Assembly (NCBI RefSeq): GCF_009649955.1
Contig: NZ_CP045875.1
Span: 1,407,501-1,471,500 of the forward strand
Source of the DNA: Heliorestis convoluta
GTDB lineage: Bacteria; Bacillota; Desulfitobacteriia; Heliobacteriales; Heliobacteriaceae
Reading direction: 5' to 3'
DNA length: 64,000 nt
Positions within the stretch are counted from its first letter, which is position 1. Each line of letters starts with the position of its first letter. Positions 9,649 through 61,801 of this stretch are shown here, piece after piece. Below the pieces are notes generated by a model. It did no database searches, had not been told where the DNA came from, and worked only from the letters and a program-made list of their open reading frames with translations. The position numbers and the translations under genes are program-made.

Positions 9649-9726
9649 TCTTTCACGCAATTTTCATCTTTAGTTGTGCCCGACCGGGCATGCCTGGTTA
9701 CTTCGAAAATAGTTACCCTGTGTTGG

Positions 9727-9839
9727 GGGCAGGCGTTATGAATTCCTTCCGAACGGACTCATCCCACGCCATGAGCGGCAGCAAGCTGCCGATGGCTGAG
9801 GTCTGAAGTCCTCTCTACAGGAATTCATAACGCCTGCCC
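9727..9839. repeat. Hairpin repeat A1
   Basis: Perfect 20-base arms (9727-9746 and 9820-9839; GGGCAGGCGTTATG... against its complement) enclose an inner structure: GGACT/AGTCC, GCCAT/ATGGC and an apical CGGCAG-CAAG-CTGCCG stem-loop. The interior is almost identical to that of A2 at 28197-28270 in inverse orientation. Confidence 0.85.
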
Positions 9840-9981
9840 TAGTTACATCTTGCTGGTTGAGACGAACCAATTGCCTATTGCAAATACAACAGCCAGTTGC
9901 GTATAGCCAGTTGCGTATACATAGCAGGAAGTTACGCCAAGTTATTCCAACGGCGGGAGTAACAATCAGCAAAAACCTTCT

Positions 9982-10096
9982 GGGCCAGGGCATCACGCTT
10001 TCCGCAGCGGGACTTGGGACCTCAGCTGTCGCCAGCTTGCTGGCGGTAACAGCGTGGGACCAGTCCAGAGCGGAGGAAAGCGTGATGCCCTGGCCC
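9982..10096. repeat. Hairpin repeat B1
   Basis: Perfect 22-base arms (9982-10003 and 10075-10096; core GCATCACGCTTTCC) enclose an interior with the apical stem CGCCAGC-TT-GCTGGCG. It shares its plan with the A hairpins when read in reverse complement, with paired substitutions in the stems. Confidence 0.85.
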
Positions 10097-27809: not shown

Positions 27810-27938
27810 TACAAAAACCTCCTCCGTTAATAACCCAACTGCCTACCAACAGCCTATTTACGAACCCCATGCCCATTCGGGTACAAACAAAGAGCAAAAT
27901 TAACTATCGCTAATTACCTTGGGGGTACTTTACCTAGG

Positions 27939-28052
27939 GGCCAGGTCATCACGCTTTCCTCCGCTCTGGACTGGTCCCACGCTGTTACCGCCAGCAAAGC
28001 TGGCGACAGCTGAGGTCCCAAGTCCCGCTACGGAAAGCGTGATGCCCAGTCC
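27939..28052. repeat. Hairpin repeat B2
   Basis: Arms 27939-27959 and 28032-28052 share the core ATCACGCTTTCC and its complement, with a few mismatches at their outer ends. The interior is nearly identical to the reverse complement of B1. Confidence 0.8.
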
Positions 28053-28175
28053 CAGAGGTTTTTTTGCTGATTGTTACTCCCCTTGGCATTGCTTTGTGTA
28101 AATTTCTGCTATATACGTAACTGCCTGTATTTTTCAATAAGCCATTTGGTTATTCACAGCCAGCAAGATGTACCT

Positions 28176-28291
28176 GGGTCAGGACTTATTCATTCCTGGA
28201 GAGAGGACTTCAGACCTCAGCCATCGGCAGCTTTGCTGCCGCTCATGGCGTGGGATGAGTCCGTTCGGAAGGAATGAATAAGTCCTGACCC
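28176..28291. repeat. Hairpin repeat A2
   Basis: Perfect 21-base arms (28176-28196 and 28271-28291; GGGTCAGGACTTATTC... with its complement). The interior 28197-28270 matches the reverse complement of the A1 interior with only a few differences, although the arms differ at many positions. Confidence 0.85.
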
Positions 28292-28314
28292 CACCACAGG
28301 GTATCTATTTCGTG

Positions 28315-29388
28315 CTATATCCCCCCACCTTGATCATGAATCGCCCGTCTCTCCTGCTGAATCGACTTCGCCAAACTAATAGCACCGACAGTAGCAATAA
28401 AAAGACTTGCCAAGACGAGTAAAGTATAATAATCGGCTTTGATAAAAAGCTGAATAAAACCGTAAGAAAGAACCAGAGACAGCAGAGGCGAAACAACCCA
28501 AACTTTAAGAATTTGCTTAATAATCCCTTTTTGCCAGAGCATAAAACCTTGACGCGCTGTTCCGATGCCCATAATCCCTGAGGTAGTCACTTGCGTCAGA
28601 GGTACAGGCAAACCGAAAATGGAAGCAATAATAACAAGGCCGCCGCCCGTAAAAGATACAGCACTCCCTTGAAGCAGCGTTAGATTGGTAATGCGCTTGC
28701 CATTTGTTTCGAGCACTCTTCCTCCCATTAAAAGAGCACCGACGGCAACGAAAAGTCCACCGTAGAGAACGCCATTGTTCACATCTATCATACCAGCTCC
28801 AACGAGGGGACCAACGGCGTTGGCCACGTTGTTCATTCCGGCTGCGAAGGCTTCTAAGGTGCCTGCTGTAATGAGCAAGATGACGAGGGGCTTTTTCCAC
28901 TTGCCTTCCCCTTTGAGCTGGGGCCAACGCTTTTCCATTTTCAGAACGAATTTGCCAAAAAAGTAAGACAACGAAAAAGCCACGATGGGCGTTATTACCC
29001 AGAAAGAGACAATCAAAGCGAGCTTGTCGTAATAGAGAGCTTGAAAAGCAATCCCTGCACCCACTATAGAGCCTACGACAACTTCACTCGTTGACAAAGG
29101 GATGGCCATAAGATTGGCAATAAACAAAGTTAAGCAGGCAGCAGCCAAAATAATAACGACCAATTCTACCGTTACAATGGAAGAGGGAATGATGCCAGAG
29201 CCGATGGTGCGAACAACTTCACCACCGGCTAAAGCACCCAGGAAAACAGCAATGGCTACTACGAGTAGGGCTGTTCTTTTTTTCAATGCGCCGCTTCCAT
29301 AAGCGGGGCCCATGGACGCAGCCGTTCCACTCGCGCCAATATTCATGGCGAAAAAGAAGGCTACGGCAAAGGCAATATAGATAAGCAT
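28315..29388 (-). CDS. cysP: PiT-family permease, probable sulfate permease CysP
   Basis: An integral membrane protein of 357 residues with about ten helices and the two PiT repeats. The signatures appear as AMNIGASGTAASMGPAYGSGAL in the first half and GMNNVANAVGPLVGAGMID in the second. PiT proteins usually carry phosphate, but in Bacillus subtilis the PiT member CysP carries sulfate. Here it lies between cysC and sat, so sulfate is the likely substrate. AGGTGA precedes the ATG at 29388. The compound repeat directly follows its stop. Confidence 0.8.
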   Translation of the reverse strand: MLIYIAFAVAFFFAMNIGASGTAASMGPAYGSGALKKRTALLVVAIAVFLGALAGGEVVRTIGSGIIPSSIVTVELVVIILAAACLTLFIANLMAIPLSTSEVVVGSIVGAGIAFQALYYDKLALIVSFWVITPIVAFSLSYFFGKFVLKMEKRWPQLKGEGKWKKPLVILLITAGTLEAFAAGMNNVANAVGPLVGAGMIDVNNGVLYGGLFVAVGALLMGGRVLETNGKRITNLTLLQGSAVSFTGGGLVIIASIFGLPVPLTQVTTSGIMGIGTARQGFMLWQKGIIKQILKVWVVSPLLSLVLSYGFIQLFIKADYYTLLVLASLFIATVGAISLAKSIQQERRAIHDQGGGI

Positions 29389-31882: not shown

Positions 31883-31896
31883 AAATACCTGATTCC

Positions 31897-31979
31897 GTTG
31901 GGGCTACTTTATACAGGCCTGGTCATCACGCTGTCACAACCAGCAAAATCTACCTGCCCCCACCACAAGATATTGTCGC
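31897..31979. repeat. Compound repeat, copy 3, lacking both hairpins
   Basis: GGGGCTACTTTATACAGG and CCTGGTCATCACGCTG match the left end of copy 2; CAACCAGCAAAATCTACCTG then CCCCACCACAAGATATTG match its spacer end and right end. Hairpin A is missing exactly between TACCTG and CCCACC. Most of hairpin B and of the spacer are also gone. It lies just after the ppiB stop. Confidence 0.7.
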
Positions 31980-31984
31980 ACTAA

Positions 31985-32419
31985 TTATTCTACTTCTTCA
32001 ATTGTAACCTTCGTCATTCTATCGCCTCGACGAATATCATCAACAACCTCAAGCCCTTCTACAACACGACCAAATACCGTATGATTGCCATCTAGGTGTG
32101 GCTGGGGGCTGTGGCAGACAAAGAATTGACTGCCTCCTGTATCACGGCCTGCATGAGCCATGGAGAGGGATCCACGCATATGCTTATTCGGGTTGTTCTG
32201 AACTTCGCAGGGAATGGTATATCCAGGTCCACCAGAACCTGTTCCATTGGGGCAACCACCCTGAATAACGAAGTCAGGAATCACACGGTGAAAGGTTAAG
32301 CCATCGTAATAGCCTTCCTTAATCAGCTTTTCAAAGTTGGCCACTGTGCCAGGGGCGTCTTTTTCATAGAGTTCAACTACCATAGTTCCTTTTTCTGTCT
32401 CAATGATTGCTTTTTTCAC
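31985..32419 (-). CDS. ppiB: Cyclophilin-type peptidyl-prolyl cis-trans isomerase
   Basis: Catalyses proline isomerisation during protein folding. 144 residues, a minimal cytoplasmic cyclophilin with no signal peptide. Motifs are [47 protein letters not shown] and [14 protein letters not shown]. The start is a GTG at 32419 with TTGGAGG eight bases upstream. Monocistronic. Confidence 0.95.
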
Positions 32420-32578: not shown

Positions 32579-33337
32579 TTATCTTCTTGTAGGGCCTTTG
32601 GTATTGCCTTTTTTCTTGCTATTTTTCTTTTTGCCACGCTTGCGGGCCTCTTTGCCAGGGGACGATCTCATGCCTATTTTCTTCTGTGCTTCTTCATCGC
32701 CTTGTTCGGCTGCCTTTCTATACCACTGCAGCGCTTCTTCTGGCGATGCTATCGTGCCAATGCCTTCTTCAAGCATAAAAGCTAGGTTGAATTGGCTGTC
32801 TACATGACCTTGTTCTGCGGCTTGGCGATACCAATGCAGCGCTTCTTGATCGTTTTTTTCGACGCCTTCGCCGATAGAAAGCATCATAGCCAATTGGAAT
32901 TGTCCTTCAGCATGGCCTTGCTCTGCAGCTTTCCGAAACCAGCCTAAAGCTTTTTGTCCATCCGCTTCTACAGTAGTGCCTTCCGCGTAAATTTCGCCTA
33001 GTCGAACCTGGGCCTCTACCACGCCTTGGCCAGCGGCGGCTTCGTACCAACGCAGTGCTTCTGCGTCATTCTGAGAGACACCCCAGCCATCTTCATACAT
33101 CGTAGCTAGAGCCAATTGGGCCATGCTGTGGCCTTGTTGGGCTGCTTTTTCGTACCAGCGAAAAGCTTCTTTGCCACTTTCTCGTAGGCCTCGTCCTTCT
33201 TCGAAGCATTGGGCTAGGTGGTACTGTGCTTCGGCATCGCCTGATTCAGCTTGTTCTTGTATATAAGGTAGCGATAGTTTTTCATGAGACTTTTCTTTTT
33301 CATCTTTTGCTTCTATTTCTACTTTGTCATCTATCAT
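32579..33337 (-). CDS. Sel1-like repeat protein
   Basis: 252 residues with about five or six Sel1/TPR-like repeats of 36 residues, each with A..LA.M...G.G....D..EAL.WYRKAAEQG. Such helical solenoids hold protein partners. The tail is strongly basic (GKEARKRGKKKNSKKKGN), which may contact nucleic acid or be a disordered anchor. No signal peptide. The gene is alone between ppiB and a histidine kinase gene on the same strand. Confidence 0.85.
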   Translation of the reverse strand: MIDDKVEIEAKDEKEKSHEKLSLPYIQEQAESGDAEAQYHLAQCFEEGRGLRESGKEAFRWYEKAAQQGHSMAQLALATMYEDGWGVSQNDAEALRWYEAAAGQGVVEAQVRLGEIYAEGTTVEADGQKALGWFRKAAEQGHAEGQFQLAMMLSIGEGVEKNDQEALHWYRQAAEQGHVDSQFNLAFMLEEGIGTIASPEEALQWYRKAAEQGDEEAQKKIGMRSSPGKEARKRGKKKNSKKKGNTKGPTRR

Positions 33338-41363: not shown

Positions 41364-41438
41364 TGGAGCGGAAGACGAGATTCGAACTCGCGACCCTCGC
41401 CTTGGCAAGGCGATGCTCTACCACTGAGCCACTTCCGC
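41364..41438 (-). tRNA. tRNA-Gly (GCC)
   Basis: Cloverleaf with anticodon loop TTGCCAA, encoded CCA, last gene of cluster A. Nearly the same sequence lies at 54089-54163. Confidence 0.95.
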
Positions 41439-41441
41439 AAG

Positions 41442-41524
41442 TGGTGCGGTCGAGAGGACTTGAACCTCCACGGTTGCCCGCTGGAACCTAAATCCAGTGC
41501 GTCTGCCAATTCCGCCACGACCGC
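41442..41524 (-). tRNA. tRNA-Leu (TAG)
   Basis: Long variable arm, anticodon loop TTTAGGT, acceptor GCGGTCG/CGACCGC, encoded CCA. Not present in cluster B, which has Leu(CAG) at the matching place. Confidence 0.93.
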
Positions 41525-41546
41525 AAATAAAATTGTATAGTAAAGA

Positions 41547-41622
41547 TGGAGCCAGCGACAGGAATTGAACCCGCAACCTACTGATTACAAGTCAGTTGCT
41601 CTACCGATTGAGCTACGCTGGC
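41547..41622 (-). tRNA. tRNA-Thr (TGT)
   Basis: Anticodon loop TTGTAAT, acceptor GCCAGCG/CGCTGGC, encoded CCA. Confidence 0.95.
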
Positions 41623-41630
41623 AAACAAGA

Positions 41631-41721
41631 TGGCGGAGTGGGAGGGATTTGAACCCTCGCTGGACTTACGCCCACTAACGGTTTAGCAAACCGTCCTCTT
41701 CAGCCGCTTGAGTACCACTCC
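41631..41721 (-). tRNA. tRNA-Ser (GCT)
   Basis: Class II with long variable arm, anticodon loop TTGCTAA, acceptor GGAGTGG/CCACTCC, encoded CCA. Confidence 0.95.
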
Positions 41722-41728
41722 ATATAAA

Positions 41729-41805
41729 TGGCGGAGCTGACGGGATTCGAACCCGCGGTCTCCTGCGTGACAGGCAGGCATGTTAGGCCTCTACACCACA
41801 GCTCC
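41729..41805 (-). tRNA. tRNA-Asp (GTC)
   Basis: Anticodon loop CTGTCAC, acceptor GGAGCTG/CAGCTCC, discriminator G, encoded CCA. Confidence 0.95.
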
Positions 41806-41811
41806 ATTTTT

Positions 41812-41887
41812 TGGTGGGCGATGACAGGATCGAACTGCCGACCCCCTGCTTGTAAGGCAGGTGCTCTCCCAGCTGAGCTAATCGCCC
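41812..41887 (-). tRNA. tRNA-Val (TAC)
   Basis: Anticodon loop CTTACAA, acceptor GGGCGAT/ATCGCCC, encoded CCA. Confidence 0.95.
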
Positions 41888-41895
41888 TAAATAAT

Positions 41896-41971
41896 TGGTG
41901 ACCCGTAGGGGATTCGAACCCCTGTTACCGCCGTGAAAGGGCGGTGTCTTAGACCACTTGACCAACGGGCC
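41896..41971 (-). tRNA. tRNA-Glu (TTC)
   Basis: Anticodon loop CTTTCAC, acceptor GGCCCGT/ACGGGTC with one G-T pair, encoded CCA. Confidence 0.95.
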
Positions 41972-41976
41972 CTACA

Positions 41977-42052
41977 TGGTGATCCATGCTGGACTCGAAC
42001 CAGCGACACCCTGATTAAAAGTCAGGTGCTCTACCAACTGAGCTAATGGATC
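41977..42052 (-). tRNA. tRNA-Lys (TTT)
   Basis: Anticodon loop CTTTTAA, acceptor GATCCAT/ATGGATC, encoded CCA. Confidence 0.95.
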
Positions 42053-42057
42053 TTATA

Positions 42058-42132
42058 TGGCTGGGGAGGCTGGATTCGAACCAACGAATGGCGGAGTCAA
42101 AGTCCGCTGCCTTACCACTTGGCTACACCCCA
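42058..42132 (-). tRNA. tRNA-Gln (TTG)
   Basis: Anticodon loop TTTGACT, U1-A72 acceptor TGGGGTG typical of tRNA-Gln, one T-T mismatch in the stem shared with the cluster B copy, encoded CCA. Confidence 0.93.
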
Positions 42133-42137
42133 AAAAT

Positions 42138-42221
<84 letters not shown>

Positions 42222-42229
42222 AAGGAAGA

Positions 42230-42305
<76 letters not shown>

Positions 42306-42313
42306 ATACTAAA

Positions 42314-42390
42314 TGGTGGACGATGACGGAATCGAACCGCCGACCCCTTGCATGTCAAGCAAGTACTCTAACCAGCTGAGCTAATCGTCC
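42314..42390 (-). tRNA. tRNA-Val (GAC)
   Basis: Anticodon loop TTGACAT, acceptor GGACGAT/ATCGTCC, encoded CCA. Confidence 0.93.
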
Positions 42391-42400
42391 AGTGTTTTTT

Positions 42401-42477
42401 TGGTAGCGGTGGTAGGATTTGAACCTACGACCCTACGGGTATGAACCGTATGCTCTGACCAACTGAGCTACACCGCC
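42401..42477 (-). tRNA. tRNA-Met (CAT), elongator type
   Basis: Anticodon loop TTCATAC, acceptor GGCGGTG with ACCA end. The sequence resembles elongator Met; a lysidine-modified Ile(CAT) cannot be fully excluded. Confidence 0.88.
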
Positions 42478-42485
42478 AAATACCG

Positions 42486-42572
42486 TGGTGCCGAAGGCCG
42501 GGGTCGAACCGGCACGAAGTTTCCCTCACTGGTTTTTGAGACCAGCGCGTCTGCCAATTCCGCCACTTCGGC
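42486..42572 (-). tRNA. tRNA-Leu (CAA)
   Basis: Long variable arm, anticodon loop CTCAAAA, anticodon stem CTGGT/ACCAG intact here, acceptor GCCGAAG/CTTCGGC, encoded CCA. Confidence 0.95.
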
Positions 42573-42597
42573 ATATTACATATAGCTGTTATATAAT

Positions 42598-42672
<75 letters not shown>

Positions 42673-42673
42673 A

Positions 42674-42750
42674 TGGGGTGGCTGATGGGACTTGAACCCA
42701 CGAGTGCCGGAGCCACAATCCGGTGCGTTAACCACTTCGCCACAACCACC
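42674..42750 (-). tRNA. tRNA-His (GTG)
   Basis: Anticodon loop TTGTGGC, extra G-1 opposite discriminator C as expected for His, encoded CCA. Confidence 0.95.
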
Positions 42751-42783
42751 ATAATATAATTTCTTAGAACTCTAACTTTAAAG

Positions 42784-42860
<77 letters not shown>

Positions 42861-42863
42861 CTA

Positions 42864-42937
42864 TGGAGCGGGTGATGGGAATCGAACCCACGTAGCTAGC
42901 TTGGAAGGCTAGAGCTTTACCATTAAGCTACACCCGC
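42864..42937 (-). tRNA. tRNA-Gly (TCC)
   Basis: Anticodon loop CTTCCAA, acceptor GCGGGTG/CACCCGC, encoded CCA. Confidence 0.95.
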
Positions 42938-42951
42938 ATTTTTAAGAGATA

Positions 42952-43028
42952 TGGTCGGGGTGACACGACTTGAACGTGCGGCCTCCTGCTCCCAAGGCAG
43001 GCGCTCCACCAAACTGAGCTACACCCCG
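42952..43028 (-). tRNA. tRNA-Pro (TGG)
   Basis: Anticodon loop CTTGGGA, acceptor CGGGGTG/CACCCCG, encoded CCA. Confidence 0.93.
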
Positions 43029-43037
43029 ATTCTTCTA

Positions 43038-43129
43038 TGGCGGAGAAAGAGGGATTCGAACCCTCGAGACGGTTTTGCCGCCTACACGATTTCCAATCGT
43101 GCGCCTTCGACCAACTCGGCCATCTCTCC
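43038..43129 (-). tRNA. tRNA-Ser (GGA)
   Basis: Class II, anticodon loop TTGGAAA, acceptor GGAGAGA paired with TTTCTCC through one G-T wobble; cluster B has the Watson-Crick form. Confidence 0.95.
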
Positions 43130-43137
43130 TGATAAAT

Positions 43138-43213
43138 TGGTTGCGGGGACAGGACTTGAACCTGTGACCTTCGGGTTATGAGCCCGACGAGCTGCCAGCT
43201 GCTCCACCCCGCG
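43138..43213 (-). tRNA. tRNA-fMet (CAT), initiator
   Basis: Anticodon loop CTCATAA, stem GGG/CCC before the loop, and a C1-A72 mismatch (CGCGGGG/CCCCGCA), the initiator marks. Confidence 0.95.
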
Positions 43214-43219
43214 TCATTA

Positions 43220-43295
43220 TGGCTCCTCGAGTAGGACTCGAACCTACAACCTACCGGTTAACAGCCGGTTGCTCTACCGATTGAGCTATCGAGGA
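43220..43295 (-). tRNA. tRNA-Asn (GTT)
   Basis: Anticodon loop CTGTTAA, acceptor TCCTCGA/TCGAGGA, encoded CCA. First gene of cluster A after the 23S fragment. Confidence 0.95.
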
Positions 43296-43374: not shown

Positions 43375-43554
<180 letters not shown>

Positions 43555-43555
<1 letters not shown>

Positions 43556-43670
43556 CTTCCCACTACGTAAGTAGGTAAGACCCCAGGAAGATGACCTGGT
43601 TGATCGGCTCGAGATGGAAGCGCTGTGAGGCGTGTAGTTGACGAGTACGAATCGGTCGAGGACTTAACCT
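43555..43670 (+). rRNA. 23S rRNA, 3' fragment (about 115 nt), plus strand
   Basis: Begins at ACTTCCCACTACGTAAGTAGG and ends GAGGACTTAACCT, a second 23S 3' end pointing away from the minus-strand fragment. A terminator and then adhE follow it; no 5S is present. Confidence 0.9.
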
Positions 43671-43786
43671 ACTCTATTACATCGCAAATTGCTTGGGGAT
43701 TAAACCCCGCGGAAACTCAGAAACAATTCTGACAATTCGCGGTTACGTTAAAACCCTTCTCTGTGTAGCTTTCAAGGAATAAGTGA

Positions 43787-51751: not shown

Positions 51752-51847
51752 TTTGGAGAGTTTGATCCTGGCTCAGGACGAACGCTGGCGGCATGCCTAA
51801 CACATGCAAGTCGAACGGAGCTTCAAAGTAGCTTGCTACTTTGTGCA
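51752..51847 (+). rRNA. 16S rRNA, 5' fragment (about 95 nt) fused to 23S
   Basis: GGAGAGTTTGATCCTGGCTC to helix 6 (AGTAGCTTGCTACTTTGTG) and then directly 23S sequence. The junction sits at AGCG, a short overlap shared by both RNAs. Helix 6 differs in sequence from the fragment at 40680-41006. Confidence 0.9.
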
Positions 51848-52033
<186 letters not shown>

Positions 52034-52142: not shown

Positions 52143-52218
52143 TCCTCGATAGCTCAATCGGTAGAGCAACCGGCTGTTAACCGGTAGGTTGTAGGTTCGA
52201 GTCCTACTCGAGGAGCCA
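52143..52218 (+). tRNA. tRNA-Asn (GTT)
   Basis: First gene of cluster B; anticodon loop CTGTTAA; same as 43220-43295. Confidence 0.95.
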
Positions 52219-52224
52219 TAATGA

Positions 52225-52300
52225 CGCGGGGTGGAGCAGCTGGCAGCTCGTCGGGCTCATAACCCGAAGGTCACAGGTTCAAGTCCTGTCCCCGCAACCA
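52225..52300 (+). tRNA. tRNA-fMet (CAT), initiator
   Basis: C1-A72 mismatch, loop CTCATAA, GGG/CCC stem; encoded CCA. Confidence 0.95.
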
Positions 52301-52308
52301 ATTTATCA

Positions 52309-52400
52309 GGAGAGATGGCCGAGTTGGTCGAAGGCGCACGATTGGAAATCGTGTAGGCGGCAAAACCGTCTCGAGGGTTCGAATCCCTCTCTCTCCGCCA
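52309..52400 (+). tRNA. tRNA-Ser (GGA)
   Basis: Class II, loop TTGGAAA; acceptor fully paired GGAGAGA/TCTCTCC. Confidence 0.95.
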
Positions 52401-52409
52401 TAGAAGAAT

Positions 52410-52486
52410 CGGGGTGTAGCTCAGTTTGGTGGAGCGCCTGCCTTGGGAGCAGGAGGCCGCACGTTCAAGTCGTGTCACCCCGACCA
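52410..52486 (+). tRNA. tRNA-Pro (TGG)
   Basis: Loop CTTGGGA, acceptor CGGGGTG/CACCCCG, encoded CCA. Confidence 0.93.
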
Positions 52487-52500
52487 TTTTTCTTAAAAAT

Positions 52501-52574
52501 GCGGGTGTAGCTTAATGGTAAAGCTCTAGCCTTCCAAGCTAGCTACGTGGGTTCGATTCCCATCACCCGCTCCA
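52501..52574 (+). tRNA. tRNA-Gly (TCC)
   Basis: Loop CTTCCAA, acceptor GCGGGTG/CACCCGC, encoded CCA. Confidence 0.95.
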
Positions 52575-52577
52575 TAG

Positions 52578-52654
<77 letters not shown>

Positions 52655-52688
52655 CTTTTCAGTTGGCGTTCTAAAGAAAATATATTAT

Positions 52689-52765
52689 GGTGGTTGTGGC
52701 GAAGTGGTTAACGCACCGGATTGTGGCTCCGGCACTCGTGGGTTCAAGTCCCATCAGCCACCCCA
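52689..52765 (+). tRNA. tRNA-His (GTG)
   Basis: Loop TTGTGGC with G-1 and discriminator C; encoded CCA. Confidence 0.95.
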
Positions 52766-52766
52766 T

Positions 52767-52841
<75 letters not shown>

Positions 52842-52866
52842 ATTATATAACAGTTATATGTAATAT

Positions 52867-52953
52867 GCCGAAGTGGCGGAATTGGCAGACGCGCTGGTCT
52901 CAAAAACCTGTGAGGGAAACTTCGTGCCGGTTCGACCCCGGCCTTCGGCACCA
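52867..52953 (+). tRNA. tRNA-Leu (CAA)
   Basis: Long variable arm, loop CTCAAAA. The anticodon stem reads CTGGT/ACCTG, so one base pair is broken relative to cluster A. Confidence 0.92.
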
Positions 52954-52961
52954 CAGTATTT

Positions 52962-53038
52962 GGCGGTGTAGCTCAGTTGGTCAGAGCATACGGTTCATAC
53001 CCGTAGGGTCGTAGGTTCAAATCCTACCACCGCTACCA
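52962..53038 (+). tRNA. tRNA-Met (CAT), elongator type
   Basis: Loop TTCATAC, acceptor GGCGGTG, ACCA end; as at 42401-42477. Confidence 0.88.
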
Positions 53039-53046
53039 AAAACACT

Positions 53047-53123
53047 GGACGATTAGCTCAGCTGGTTAGAGTACTTGCTTGACATGCAAGGGGTCGGCGG
53101 TTCGATTCCGTCATCGTCCACCA
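53047..53123 (+). tRNA. tRNA-Val (GAC)
   Basis: Loop TTGACAT, acceptor GGACGAT/ATCGTCC, encoded CCA. Confidence 0.93.
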
Positions 53124-53131
53124 TTTAGTAT

Positions 53132-53207
<76 letters not shown>

Positions 53208-53215
53208 TCTTCCCT

Positions 53216-53299
<84 letters not shown>

Positions 53300-53304
53300 T
53301 TTTT

Positions 53305-53379
53305 TGGGGTGTAGCCAAGTGGTAAGGCAGCGGACTTTGACTCCGCCATTCGTTGGTTCGAATCCAGCCTCCCCAGCCA
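53305..53379 (+). tRNA. tRNA-Gln (TTG)
   Basis: Loop TTTGACT, U1-A72 acceptor, encoded CCA. Confidence 0.93.
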
Positions 53380-53384
53380 TATAA

Positions 53385-53460
53385 GATCCATTAGCTCAGT
53401 TGGTAGAGCACCTGACTTTTAATCAGGGTGTCGCTGGTTCGAGTCCAGCATGGATCACCA
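53385..53460 (+). tRNA. tRNA-Lys (TTT)
   Basis: Loop CTTTTAA, acceptor GATCCAT/ATGGATC, encoded CCA. Confidence 0.95.
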
Positions 53461-53465
53461 TGTAG

Positions 53466-53541
53466 GGCCCGTTGGTCAAGTGGTCTAAGACACCGCCCTT
53501 TCACGGCGGTAACAGGGGTTCGAATCCCCTACGGGTCACCA
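53466..53541 (+). tRNA. tRNA-Glu (TTC)
   Basis: Loop CTTTCAC, acceptor GGCCCGT/ACGGGTC, encoded CCA. Confidence 0.95.
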
Positions 53542-53548
53542 AAATATT

Positions 53549-53624
53549 GGGCGATTAGCTCAGCTGGGAGAGCACCTGCCTTACAAGCAGGGGGTCGGCA
53601 GTTCGATCCTGTCATCGCCCACCA
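53549..53624 (+). tRNA. tRNA-Val (TAC)
   Basis: Loop CTTACAA, acceptor GGGCGAT/ATCGCCC, encoded CCA. Confidence 0.95.
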
Positions 53625-53631
53625 AAAAAAT

Positions 53632-53708
53632 GGAGCTGTGGTGTAGAGGCCTAACATGCCTGCCTGTCACGCAGGAGACCGCGGGTTCGAATCCCGTCAG
53701 CTCCGCCA
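53632..53708 (+). tRNA. tRNA-Asp (GTC)
   Basis: Loop CTGTCAC, acceptor GGAGCTG/CAGCTCC, encoded CCA. Confidence 0.95.
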
Positions 53709-53715
53709 TTTATAT

Positions 53716-53806
53716 GGAGTGGTACTCAAGCGGCTGAAGAGGACGGTTTGCTAAACCGTTAGTGGGCGTAAGTCCAGCGAGGGTTCAAATCCCTCCCACT
53801 CCGCCA
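53716..53806 (+). tRNA. tRNA-Ser (GCT)
   Basis: Class II, loop TTGCTAA, acceptor GGAGTGG/CCACTCC, encoded CCA. Confidence 0.95.
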
Positions 53807-53814
53807 CGACGTTT

Positions 53815-53890
<76 letters not shown>

Positions 53891-53899
53891 CTTTTCTTA

Positions 53900-53976
53900 C
53901 GGGGCGTAGCTCAGCTTGGTAGAGCGCTACCTTGGGGTGGTAGAGGTCGCACGTTCAAGTCGTGTCGCTCCGACCA
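53900..53976 (+). tRNA. tRNA-Pro (GGG)
   Basis: Anticodon stem CTACC/GGTAG with loop TTGGGGT; acceptor CGGGGCG/CGCTCCG with one wobble. Only in cluster B. Confidence 0.92.
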
Positions 53977-53997
53977 TTCAAAAAACCCCAAACACTT

Positions 53998-54084
53998 GCG
54001 GTCGTGGCGGAATTGGCAGACGCGCTAGATTCAGGTTCTAGTGGTCGCAAGGCTGTGGAGGTTCAAGTCCTCTCGACCGCACCA
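53998..54084 (+). tRNA. tRNA-Leu (CAG)
   Basis: Long variable arm, stem CTAGA/TCTAG with loop TTCAGGT, acceptor GCGGTCG/CGACCGC. Only in cluster B. Confidence 0.93.
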
Positions 54085-54088
54085 TTAA

Positions 54089-54163
54089 GCGGAAGTGGCT
54101 CAGTGGTAGAGCATCGCCTTGCCAAGGCGAGGGTCGCGAGTTCGAATCTCGTCTTCCGCTCCA
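54089..54163 (+). tRNA. tRNA-Gly (GCC)
   Basis: Loop TTGCCAA, acceptor GCGGAAG/CTTCCGC, encoded CCA; matches 41364-41438. Confidence 0.95.
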
Positions 54164-54166
54164 TTC

Positions 54167-54241
54167 GCGCCCGTAGCTCAGTGGATAGAGCACTGGTCTC
54201 CGGAACCAGGTGCGCAAGTTCGATTCTTGCCGGGCGCACCA
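54167..54241 (+). tRNA. tRNA-Arg (CCG)
   Basis: Stem CTGGT/ACCAG with loop CTCCGGA, acceptor GCGCCCG/CGGGCGC, encoded CCA. Only in cluster B. Confidence 0.94.
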
Positions 54242-54254
54242 TTTGTTGTGATAT

Positions 54255-54330
54255 AGGGGAGTAGCTCAACTGGCAGAGCGGCGGTCTCCAAAACCGTAGG
54301 TTGCGGGTTCAAGTCCTGTCTCCCCTGCCA
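54255..54330 (+). tRNA. tRNA-Trp (CCA)
   Basis: Loop CTCCAAA, acceptor AGGGGAG/CTCCCCT, encoded CCA. Last tRNA of cluster B; an integrase gene begins 180 bases on. Confidence 0.95.
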
Positions 54331-60309: not shown

Positions 60310-60960
60310 ATGAAATTAACCTCCTATCGTCTATCCTTCAACAGAAAACAATTCTACGGCTCTCTAGCCGTTTTTCTCTTTGCCACTGGTCTGCTCTTTC
60401 ATCTCATATCTGAAGTCAACACGCCTGCCCTTTTCTACGACGAACTCCCCAGTAGCTTCAAAACGATCAATTTTCGTTGGAACGACCAACCATGGCCACA
60501 GCATAAGTCAATGATAAAAACGGCAAACGGCCACATCGTGAATTGGCACGATATGACCGTCAATGAAGCTGTTGGACAATGGGCTAGCGATATGATTGCT
60601 AGAGGACTACCAGATCAGGTTTTTAACCGGGTCTGGACTATCATTCTGCCTAAAGATAGTGTTCCATTCCGTGACGCTTTTGGTATAGTATTACCTTTTC
60701 GTTGGGGTTATGTAGTTGTTATAGCTGGCCAATCGCGTGGGTTTAATCCTTATCTGCCAGAGATATTCGCTCATGAAGTCGGTCATATCTATGATTTTCG
60801 ATTAATGGAACATGAAAGCCGTCAACAATGGATGAATAGCAACGGCTTCGAAGGTCAATCAGTGGATGAATGGACAGTTGGTGGAATCGATAGTCCTAGC
60901 GAGATATTTGCAGATTGGGTTATGGAGCGATATGGTAGTGATATTGTAAAAGGAGATTAG
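60310..60960 (+). CDS. Membrane-anchored HExxH metallopeptidase-like protein
   Basis: About 216 residues with one N-terminal membrane helix (LAVFLFATGLLFHLI), so the rest probably faces outside. The zincin motif AHEVGHIYDF (HExxH) is followed about 30 residues later by DSPSEIFADW, where E or D could be the third zinc ligand. I cannot name a family. CGAGG lies about six bases before the ATG at 60310; a longer frame starts at 60280. The HNH gene begins two bases after its stop. A decayed copy of its middle part lies at 61685-61801. Confidence 0.7.
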   Translation: MKLTSYRLSFNRKQFYGSLAVFLFATGLLFHLISEVNTPALFYDELPSSFKTINFRWNDQPWPQHKSMIKTANGHIVNWHDMTVNEAVGQWASDMIARGLPDQVFNRVWTIILPKDSVPFRDAFGIVLPFRWGYVVVIAGQSRGFNPYLPEIFAHEVGHIYDFRLMEHESRQQWMNSNGFEGQSVDEWTVGGIDSPSEIFADWVMERYGSDIVKGD

Positions 60961-60962
60961 AT

Positions 60963-61673
60963 ATGTCTGAAAAACGCAATCCTGCTTGGCAACGAGATGA
61001 ATTGATTTTAGCGTTAGATCTATACATGCGAACGAACCCTCTACAAATAAGTGCATCGCATAGAGAAGTAATAGATCTAAGTGAAATATTAAATAGACTG
61101 CCTATTCACGGCATTAGACCAGATGCAACAAAATTTAGAAATTCAAACGGTGTTTATATGAAGCTATGTAATTTTTTGCGATTTGATCCAAGTTATCAGG
61201 GTACAGGTTTGCAAAGAGGTGGAAAACTAGAAGAAGAAATATGGAAGGAGTTCTTCCAAAAACCAGAACTCCTTCGTAAAGTAGCCTCAGCAATCAGAAA
61301 TAGTATCAACGAAACCACAAACACTGTCATTTATGAGGATGAAGACGAATTTCCAGAAGGAAAAGTATTGTTTAGACAGCATAAATATCGTGAGCGAAAC
61401 AGAGCGTTAGTTAGAAAAGCAAAAGCAAGGGCAATGAGGGAGTATGGAAGGCTACAATGCACAGTGTGTGATTTTGACTTTCATGAAACATACGGTGACC
61501 TTGGTGAGGGATACATAGAATGCCATCATACAGTCCCTGTATCTGAGTATGTGGGGGAAGTCAGAACAAAAGTTCAAGATGTAGTATTGGTATGTTCTAA
61601 CTGTCATCGTATGTTGCACAAAAGAAGACCGTGGTTAACAATAATGCAGTTGAAAGATGTTTTGAAGGTCTGA
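60963..61673 (+). CDS. HNH endonuclease-domain protein
   Basis: 236 residues. The N-terminal ~120 residues (NPAWQRDELILALDLYMR, DATKFRNSNGVYMKLCNFLRFDP) resemble the DNA-binding part of HNH restriction-type enzymes. The C-terminal HNH domain has LQCTVCDFDF, GYIECHHTVPVSEY and LVCSNCHRMLH, with four zinc cysteines and the catalytic histidine. Probably a restriction or McrA-like nuclease. AAAGGAG precedes the ATG. It lies next to a C5 methyltransferase and may use its modification as a self mark or as a target. Confidence 0.85.
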   Translation: MSEKRNPAWQRDELILALDLYMRTNPLQISASHREVIDLSEILNRLPIHGIRPDATKFRNSNGVYMKLCNFLRFDPSYQGTGLQRGGKLEEEIWKEFFQKPELLRKVASAIRNSINETTNTVIYEDEDEFPEGKVLFRQHKYRERNRALVRKAKARAMREYGRLQCTVCDFDFHETYGDLGEGYIECHHTVPVSEYVGEVRTKVQDVVLVCSNCHRMLHKRRPWLTIMQLKDVLKV

Positions 61674-61684
61674 CTTTAATATTA

Positions 61685-61801
61685 AACGGCAAACGGCCAC
61701 ATCGTGGATTGGCACGATATGACCGTCAATGAAGCTGTTGGCCTGTGGGTCAGCGATATGATTACTAAAGGATTAGTAGATTAGGTATTAACCGGGTCTG
61801 G
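61685..61801 (+). pseudogene. Decayed partial copy of the HExxH gene
   Basis: Matches 60519-60636 at roughly 85 per cent or more by eye. In frame it reads NGHIVDWHDMTVNEAVG, then a stop (TAG) where the intact gene has CAG, then a one-base deletion. No other part of the gene is present. Confidence 0.8.

Follow-up and report, generated by a model that had tools for sequence, protein, structure and literature searches.

Hairpins A1 and A2 of the photosynthetic bacterium Heliorestis convoluta are probably two copies of a dispersed, extragenic, REPIN-like and non-autonomous hairpin element, of which the core would be recognised and the arms would need only to pair. Both lie in the window, the whole 64,000-nucleotide stretch analysed here (positions 1,407,501-1,471,500 of the single 3,218,981-base contig). 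The element has a core of about 72 nt with invariant internal loops and covarying stems, and, outside it, arms of about 20 bp whose sequence varies between lineages without loss of pairing. Many unrelated loci carry arms, core and short flanks as a set, and the copies in H. convoluta mostly come as two paralogous hairpins in inverted orientation.

A preliminary description of this DNA had reported that A1 and A2 have near-identical interiors and different, yet exactly paired, arms, and this was confirmed. The interiors (72 nt in A2 and 71 nt in A1) show two differences, one substitution (G in GGAGAGA of A2, T in GTAGAGA of A1) and one indel (TTT versus TT in the apical loop). Each hairpin has perfectly complementary arms (22 bp in A2 and 21 bp in A1). 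Between the two hairpins, the arms differ by four substitutions over 22 positions and by one 1-nt indel, and every difference is mirrored on the opposite arm. The fold z-score on the plus strand was -12.1 for A2 and -10.0 for A1, and in both cases 0 of 200 shuffles was equally good. The interiors of the partner hairpins B1 and B2 are related to those of A1 and A2 and have the opposite orientation. The parts of the two composites are listed in Table 1.

Table 1. Parts of the hairpin element in the window (window positions; match, match to the covariance model)
Feature	Position	Strand	Remarks
A2, type-A hairpin, arm lineage II	28176..28291	+	Arms 28176-28197 and 28270-28291; match 28194-28275 (+), 93.7 bits
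A2 interior, conserved core	28198..28269	+	Internal loops GACCTCAG and CGTGGGA
B2, type-B hairpin, paralogous to A2 and paired with it in inverted orientation	27938..28053	-	Match 27955-28036 (-), 81.1 bits
B2-A2 spacer	28054..28175		Conserved in the composite consensus
A2 composite, left end	27912..27937		Begins aattaccttgggggtactt
A2 composite, right end	28292..28318		accacagggtatctatttcgtgcta
A1, type-A hairpin, arm lineage I	9727..9839	-	Arms 9819-9839 and 9727-9747; match 9742-9822 (-)
B1, type-B hairpin, partner of A1	9982..10096	+	Match 9999-10079 (+)
A1-B1 spacer	9840..9981		Homologous to the A2 spacer
A1 composite, right end	9661..9726		Merges with one of the 54-bp mini-repeats
Third remnant, without hairpins	31889..31985	+	Retains the left end, a portion of a B arm and the A flanks (CCTG joined to CCCCCACCACAAG); no A hairpin

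An exact-pattern search of the H. convoluta genome found 137 hairpin copies and none for the reversed control, and a covariance model, built from 22 sequences of four genomes, gave at least 148 matches (150 candidates were scored, so a few more are possible). There are 54 inverted pairs, with B on the minus and A on the plus strand at a spacing of mostly about 240 bp (116-258), as well as unpaired copies. The hairpins are extragenic, 128 of the 137 being clear of ORFs of at least 120 aa whereas 343 of 400 random stretches overlapped one, and convergent, divergent and tandem gene settings are all found around them. In the composite consensus, conservation continues outside the hairpins, giving a unit of about 470 bp. 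Its ends match a distinct mini-repeat (TAACC..ATGCCCGGTCGGGCACAACCA..GATGAAAAT..ATTTTCGT, about 54 bp long), which occurs alone, in tandem or as composite ends (L090, L040, L099 and window 9661-9726).

Some copies are rearranged. The hairpin at 2796324 (L111) is chimeric, combining the arms and flanking stem of type A with the apical stem of type B, which points to sequence exchange between type-A and type-B hairpins. Copies 446015 and 2918180, and likewise 883178 and 2727817, have one outer flank identical and the other not, as if copies had recombined within the chromosome. In the third remnant of the window, the sequence at the A position (CCTG/CCCCC) has the pattern that would be expected if CCTG repeats at the foot of a hairpin had undergone slippage or deletion. 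The window also holds other repeats, namely five 108-bp repeats (32691-33171; period 36 aa) inside the ORF at 32579-33337, which we take to be Sel1-like, and a 113-nt direct repeat (60518-60630 and 61684-61796, 86% identical) flanking the ORF at 60963-61673.

The arms were compared in 133 of the 137 copies, comprising 54 of A lineage I, 9 of A lineage II and 70 of type B; the four left out have another arm register (1009535, 2201077 and 2836296) or are truncated (1652479). Perfect arms were found in 23 of the 133, that is, in 15 of 63 A copies (10 of lineage I and 5 of lineage II) and 8 of 70 B copies. The description of the arm pairs as exact complements thus holds for A1 and A2 but not for the family. 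At positions 10, 15 and 16, lineages I and II (to which A1 and A2, respectively, belong) have different base pairs, each change being mirrored, and smaller private differences are added to these. All three positions are paired in each of the 63 A copies, and no half-switched copy exists among them; position 17 is unpaired in 41 of the 54 lineage I copies. The same arm lineage is found at dozens of unrelated loci. Private arm alleles numbered 7 in A copies, 4 of them paired (two events), and 10 in B copies, 5 of them paired. The paired private changes include those of A2 at position 9 (C-G to A-T), copy 2918180 at position 4 and copy 2217451 at positions 14 and 16, and they fit unsampled propagated lineages and template switching alike.

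Beyond H. convoluta, the covariance model matched H. acidaminivorans 13 times and two species of a second heliobacterial genus (G002 and G006) 5 times each, and it matched none of 78 other genomes (5 other genomes of the family and, with stricter filters, 73 further genomes of the class). As judged from the 82 genomes searched and one exact pattern run over genome contigs, the element appears confined to Heliorestis and this second genus. Plasmids and phages had no match to the A2 composite, and a search of viral contigs with one core pattern found nothing. Of the stem cells in the 22 sequences, 93.9% were paired compared with 83.3% after shuffling and 34-52% after sliding, and both sides had changed in 63 cells against 19.7 expected from shuffles. 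For paired cells, both-side cells and the covariation score, the real alignment was above each of the 500 shuffles and each slid version; its count of further pair types did not rise above the shuffles. The internal loops GACCTCAG and CGTGGGA were unchanged in 22 of 22 sequences, these having been found through that very pattern, and the second-genus copies found by the covariance model have a few loop changes, for example GACCCCAG.

Nine copies of H. acidaminivorans were compared in the same manner, leaving out a tenth exact-pattern copy (L132) with a broken 5′ side. Their interiors were 86% identical on average and their arms 54-58%, with 42-45% for shuffled arms, and the flanks were at the shuffled level. 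In one pair of copies (L130 and L137) the interiors were 99% and the arms 75% identical. Mean complementarity was 0.79 with the hairpin's own arm and 0.54 with the arms of other copies. The comparison of arm and interior divergence proposed in the preliminary description therefore gave arms that change faster and yet remain paired, throughout the family. Arms can be alike between species as well, since H. acidaminivorans copy L136 (2162) and H. convoluta copy 1009535 reached 0.80.

Of 32 spacers that follow 23S rRNA in the second genus, 9 contain the hairpin, immediately behind the 23S rRNA, and 23 do not. Filled spacers have arms and core together, and the arm sequence was missing at this position from all 23 empty spacers, two of which contain a matching 9-mer farther downstream. 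Eight rRNA spacers read in H. convoluta had no hairpin. One clean orthologous pair of filled spacers (L207/L230) showed three arm changes, none of them mirrored, and three interior changes; the remaining orthologous pairs are more divergent and may have undergone sequence exchange between operons. Equal rates in arms and interiors with many unpaired differences, the outcome that the preliminary description had set against its own claim, are thus seen for recent divergence (L207/L230) but not for deep divergence. The rRNA genes of the window itself are oddly arranged: the 5′ end of 16S rRNA runs straight into the last part of 23S rRNA (51754-52023), the 3′ part of 23S rRNA occurs at 43385-43675 as a near-palindrome, and the tRNA arrays at 41364-43295 and 52143-54330 are largely inverted copies of each other. 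This may reflect collapsed rRNA operons in the assembly.

The invariant loops, together with stems that are free in sequence but paired, suggest recognition of a folded core. A protein, or a factor acting at the RNA level, would recognise the unpaired bases of the core, and the arms would only have to form a stem, which would allow their sequence to change as long as each step is compensated. It would be the copies with intact pairing that are propagated, so that deep differences would be paired ones, and resting copies would gather unpaired changes; A1 and A2 would descend from arm lineages I and II, respectively. Selection on propagated lineages suffices to explain the arms, and the earlier argument that ordinary drift is insufficient is right for unconstrained drift. 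Against this explanation, private mirrored changes in single copies are more frequent than independent mutation should produce unless a lineage is unsampled, and arm and interior similarity were not significantly correlated in H. acidaminivorans (Mantel r = 0.22, P = 0.19).

What the sequence data record is dispersal, not movement. The search for a transposase covered Y1_Tnp, of which H. convoluta has one, an ordinary IS605-type TnpA with TnpB beside it, and no dedicated RAYT. There was none in G002 and G006, and H. acidaminivorans has three larger ones with no hairpin in the loci fetched around them. A Y1_Tnp insertion sequence as the source was rejected, because H. convoluta has only the IS605-type TnpA and the second genus has none. 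The composite ends are related inverted repeats; for 63 left ends, a right end followed within 600 bp in 40 cases and at 0.6-12 kb in 6, and 17 had none. This end-to-end pairing identified no gene-bearing element as an autonomous parent, and no target-site duplication was established.

The preliminary description had offered two origins for the matched arms, namely that they are acquired together from a target or that one arm templates the other. Acquisition from the target was rejected, since many unrelated loci share one arm lineage, arms are alike across species and the 23 hairpin-less spacers have no arm sequence at the site. The particular version in which the core inserts at the apex of a pre-existing palindrome, whose halves become the arms, would fit the nine different arm sets of the nine H. 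acidaminivorans copies, some no more alike than shuffled sequences, but is very hard to reconcile with the same observations or with the conservation that continues outside the arms, and we consider it highly improbable. Templating has more in its favour. According to the excerpt consulted of PMC8794818, template switching has been proposed to create and maintain hairpin stems through compensatory changes, so the process is a known one; replication would copy one quasipalindrome arm from the other, mirroring single-arm mutations, and the arms would drift in concert without selection. The private mirrored changes of A2, 2918180 and 2217451 and the lack of half-switched copies at positions 10, 15 and 16 are what it predicts. 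Nevertheless, perfect Watson-Crick pairing is lacking in the arms of 48 of 63 A copies and 62 of 70 B copies, the arm changes between L207 and L230 are not mirrored, and the internal loops, which remain unpaired and invariant in the 22 sequences from four genomes, should have been eroded by homogenisation too. Template switching is therefore doubtful as the main cause and stays as a secondary contributor. Less likely still is that the arms are renewed as a unit on copying, the core being recognised and one arm made or repaired on the other (hairpin-primed copying), so that each event could install a new matched stem around an unchanged core.

Instead of a DNA mobility signal, the hairpin could be a structured RNA, for instance a small RNA or a processing site such as one for RNase III, whose copies have spread by recombination and duplication. 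Its position directly downstream of 23S rRNA in the second genus means that it is presumably transcribed there, and conserved internal loops, covarying stems and the low fold z-scores of A1 and A2 (-10 to -12) are typical of, or consistent with, RNA. However, an RNA gene would not need anything like the roughly 150 near-identical copies that one genome contains, and the copies occur in every type of gene setting. A known RNA family was rejected because the hairpins had no Rfam match at the gathering threshold (the best at a relaxed threshold was a microRNA model, E = 0.031). Nor did the arms show the one-strand G.T excess that would separate RNA from DNA (15 G.T versus 12 A.C); in H. convoluta the wobble counts of A and B copies point in opposite directions and are dominated by single positions. 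We thus regard an RNA function as unlikely, and the REPIN-like element as the better explanation.

MITEs, ERIC and NEMIS carry one pair of terminal inverted repeats, whereas each composite end here is a long hairpin with an internal core, and no partner transposase or target duplication was identified. The element resembles these families, all named in the excerpt of PMC3116915, in being small, extragenic, palindromic and non-coding. Quasipalindrome template switching would account for the mirrored arm changes, but it is a mutation process that leaves dispersal and the invariant loops unexplained, and most copies keep mismatches. Of two heliobacterial genome papers (PMC7143216 and PMC9147875), that of H. 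convoluta does not contain the word hairpin and, in the portions consulted, mentions repeats for CRISPR only; our search found no paper on repetitive palindromic sequences of heliobacteria.

The closest resemblance is to REPINs and BIMEs, with which the heliobacterial element shares its extragenic location, high copy number, inverted doublets, conserved recognition parts and compensatory stem changes. REPINs are described in the same excerpt of PMC3116915 as a mobile hairpin family with compensatory stem changes, and a REP transposase, in the part consulted of PMC8266576, contacts bulge bases and has less specificity for the stem. In contrast, the heliobacterial unit is about 115 nt long compared with about 20-40 nt for REP, the flanks inspected have no common GTAG at the hairpin foot (a REP feature), the hairpin is single in H. 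acidaminivorans and in the second genus, where no inverted doublet was seen, and RAYT is absent both from H. convoluta, which has most of the copies, and from the second genus. By analogy, the element would work like a REPIN doublet; the dependence on RAYT was not found, and it is therefore REPIN-doublet-like rather than established as a REPIN. A core present in many copies within one genome, with several arm lineages, related species for comparison, and both filled and empty rRNA spacers in the same genome, offers a multi-copy natural experiment on the evolution of hairpin stems, in which selection for pairing and template switching predict different outcomes for arm changes in single copies. 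The element also points to a factor by which long hairpins would be dispersed in heliobacteria with no REP-associated transposase involved.
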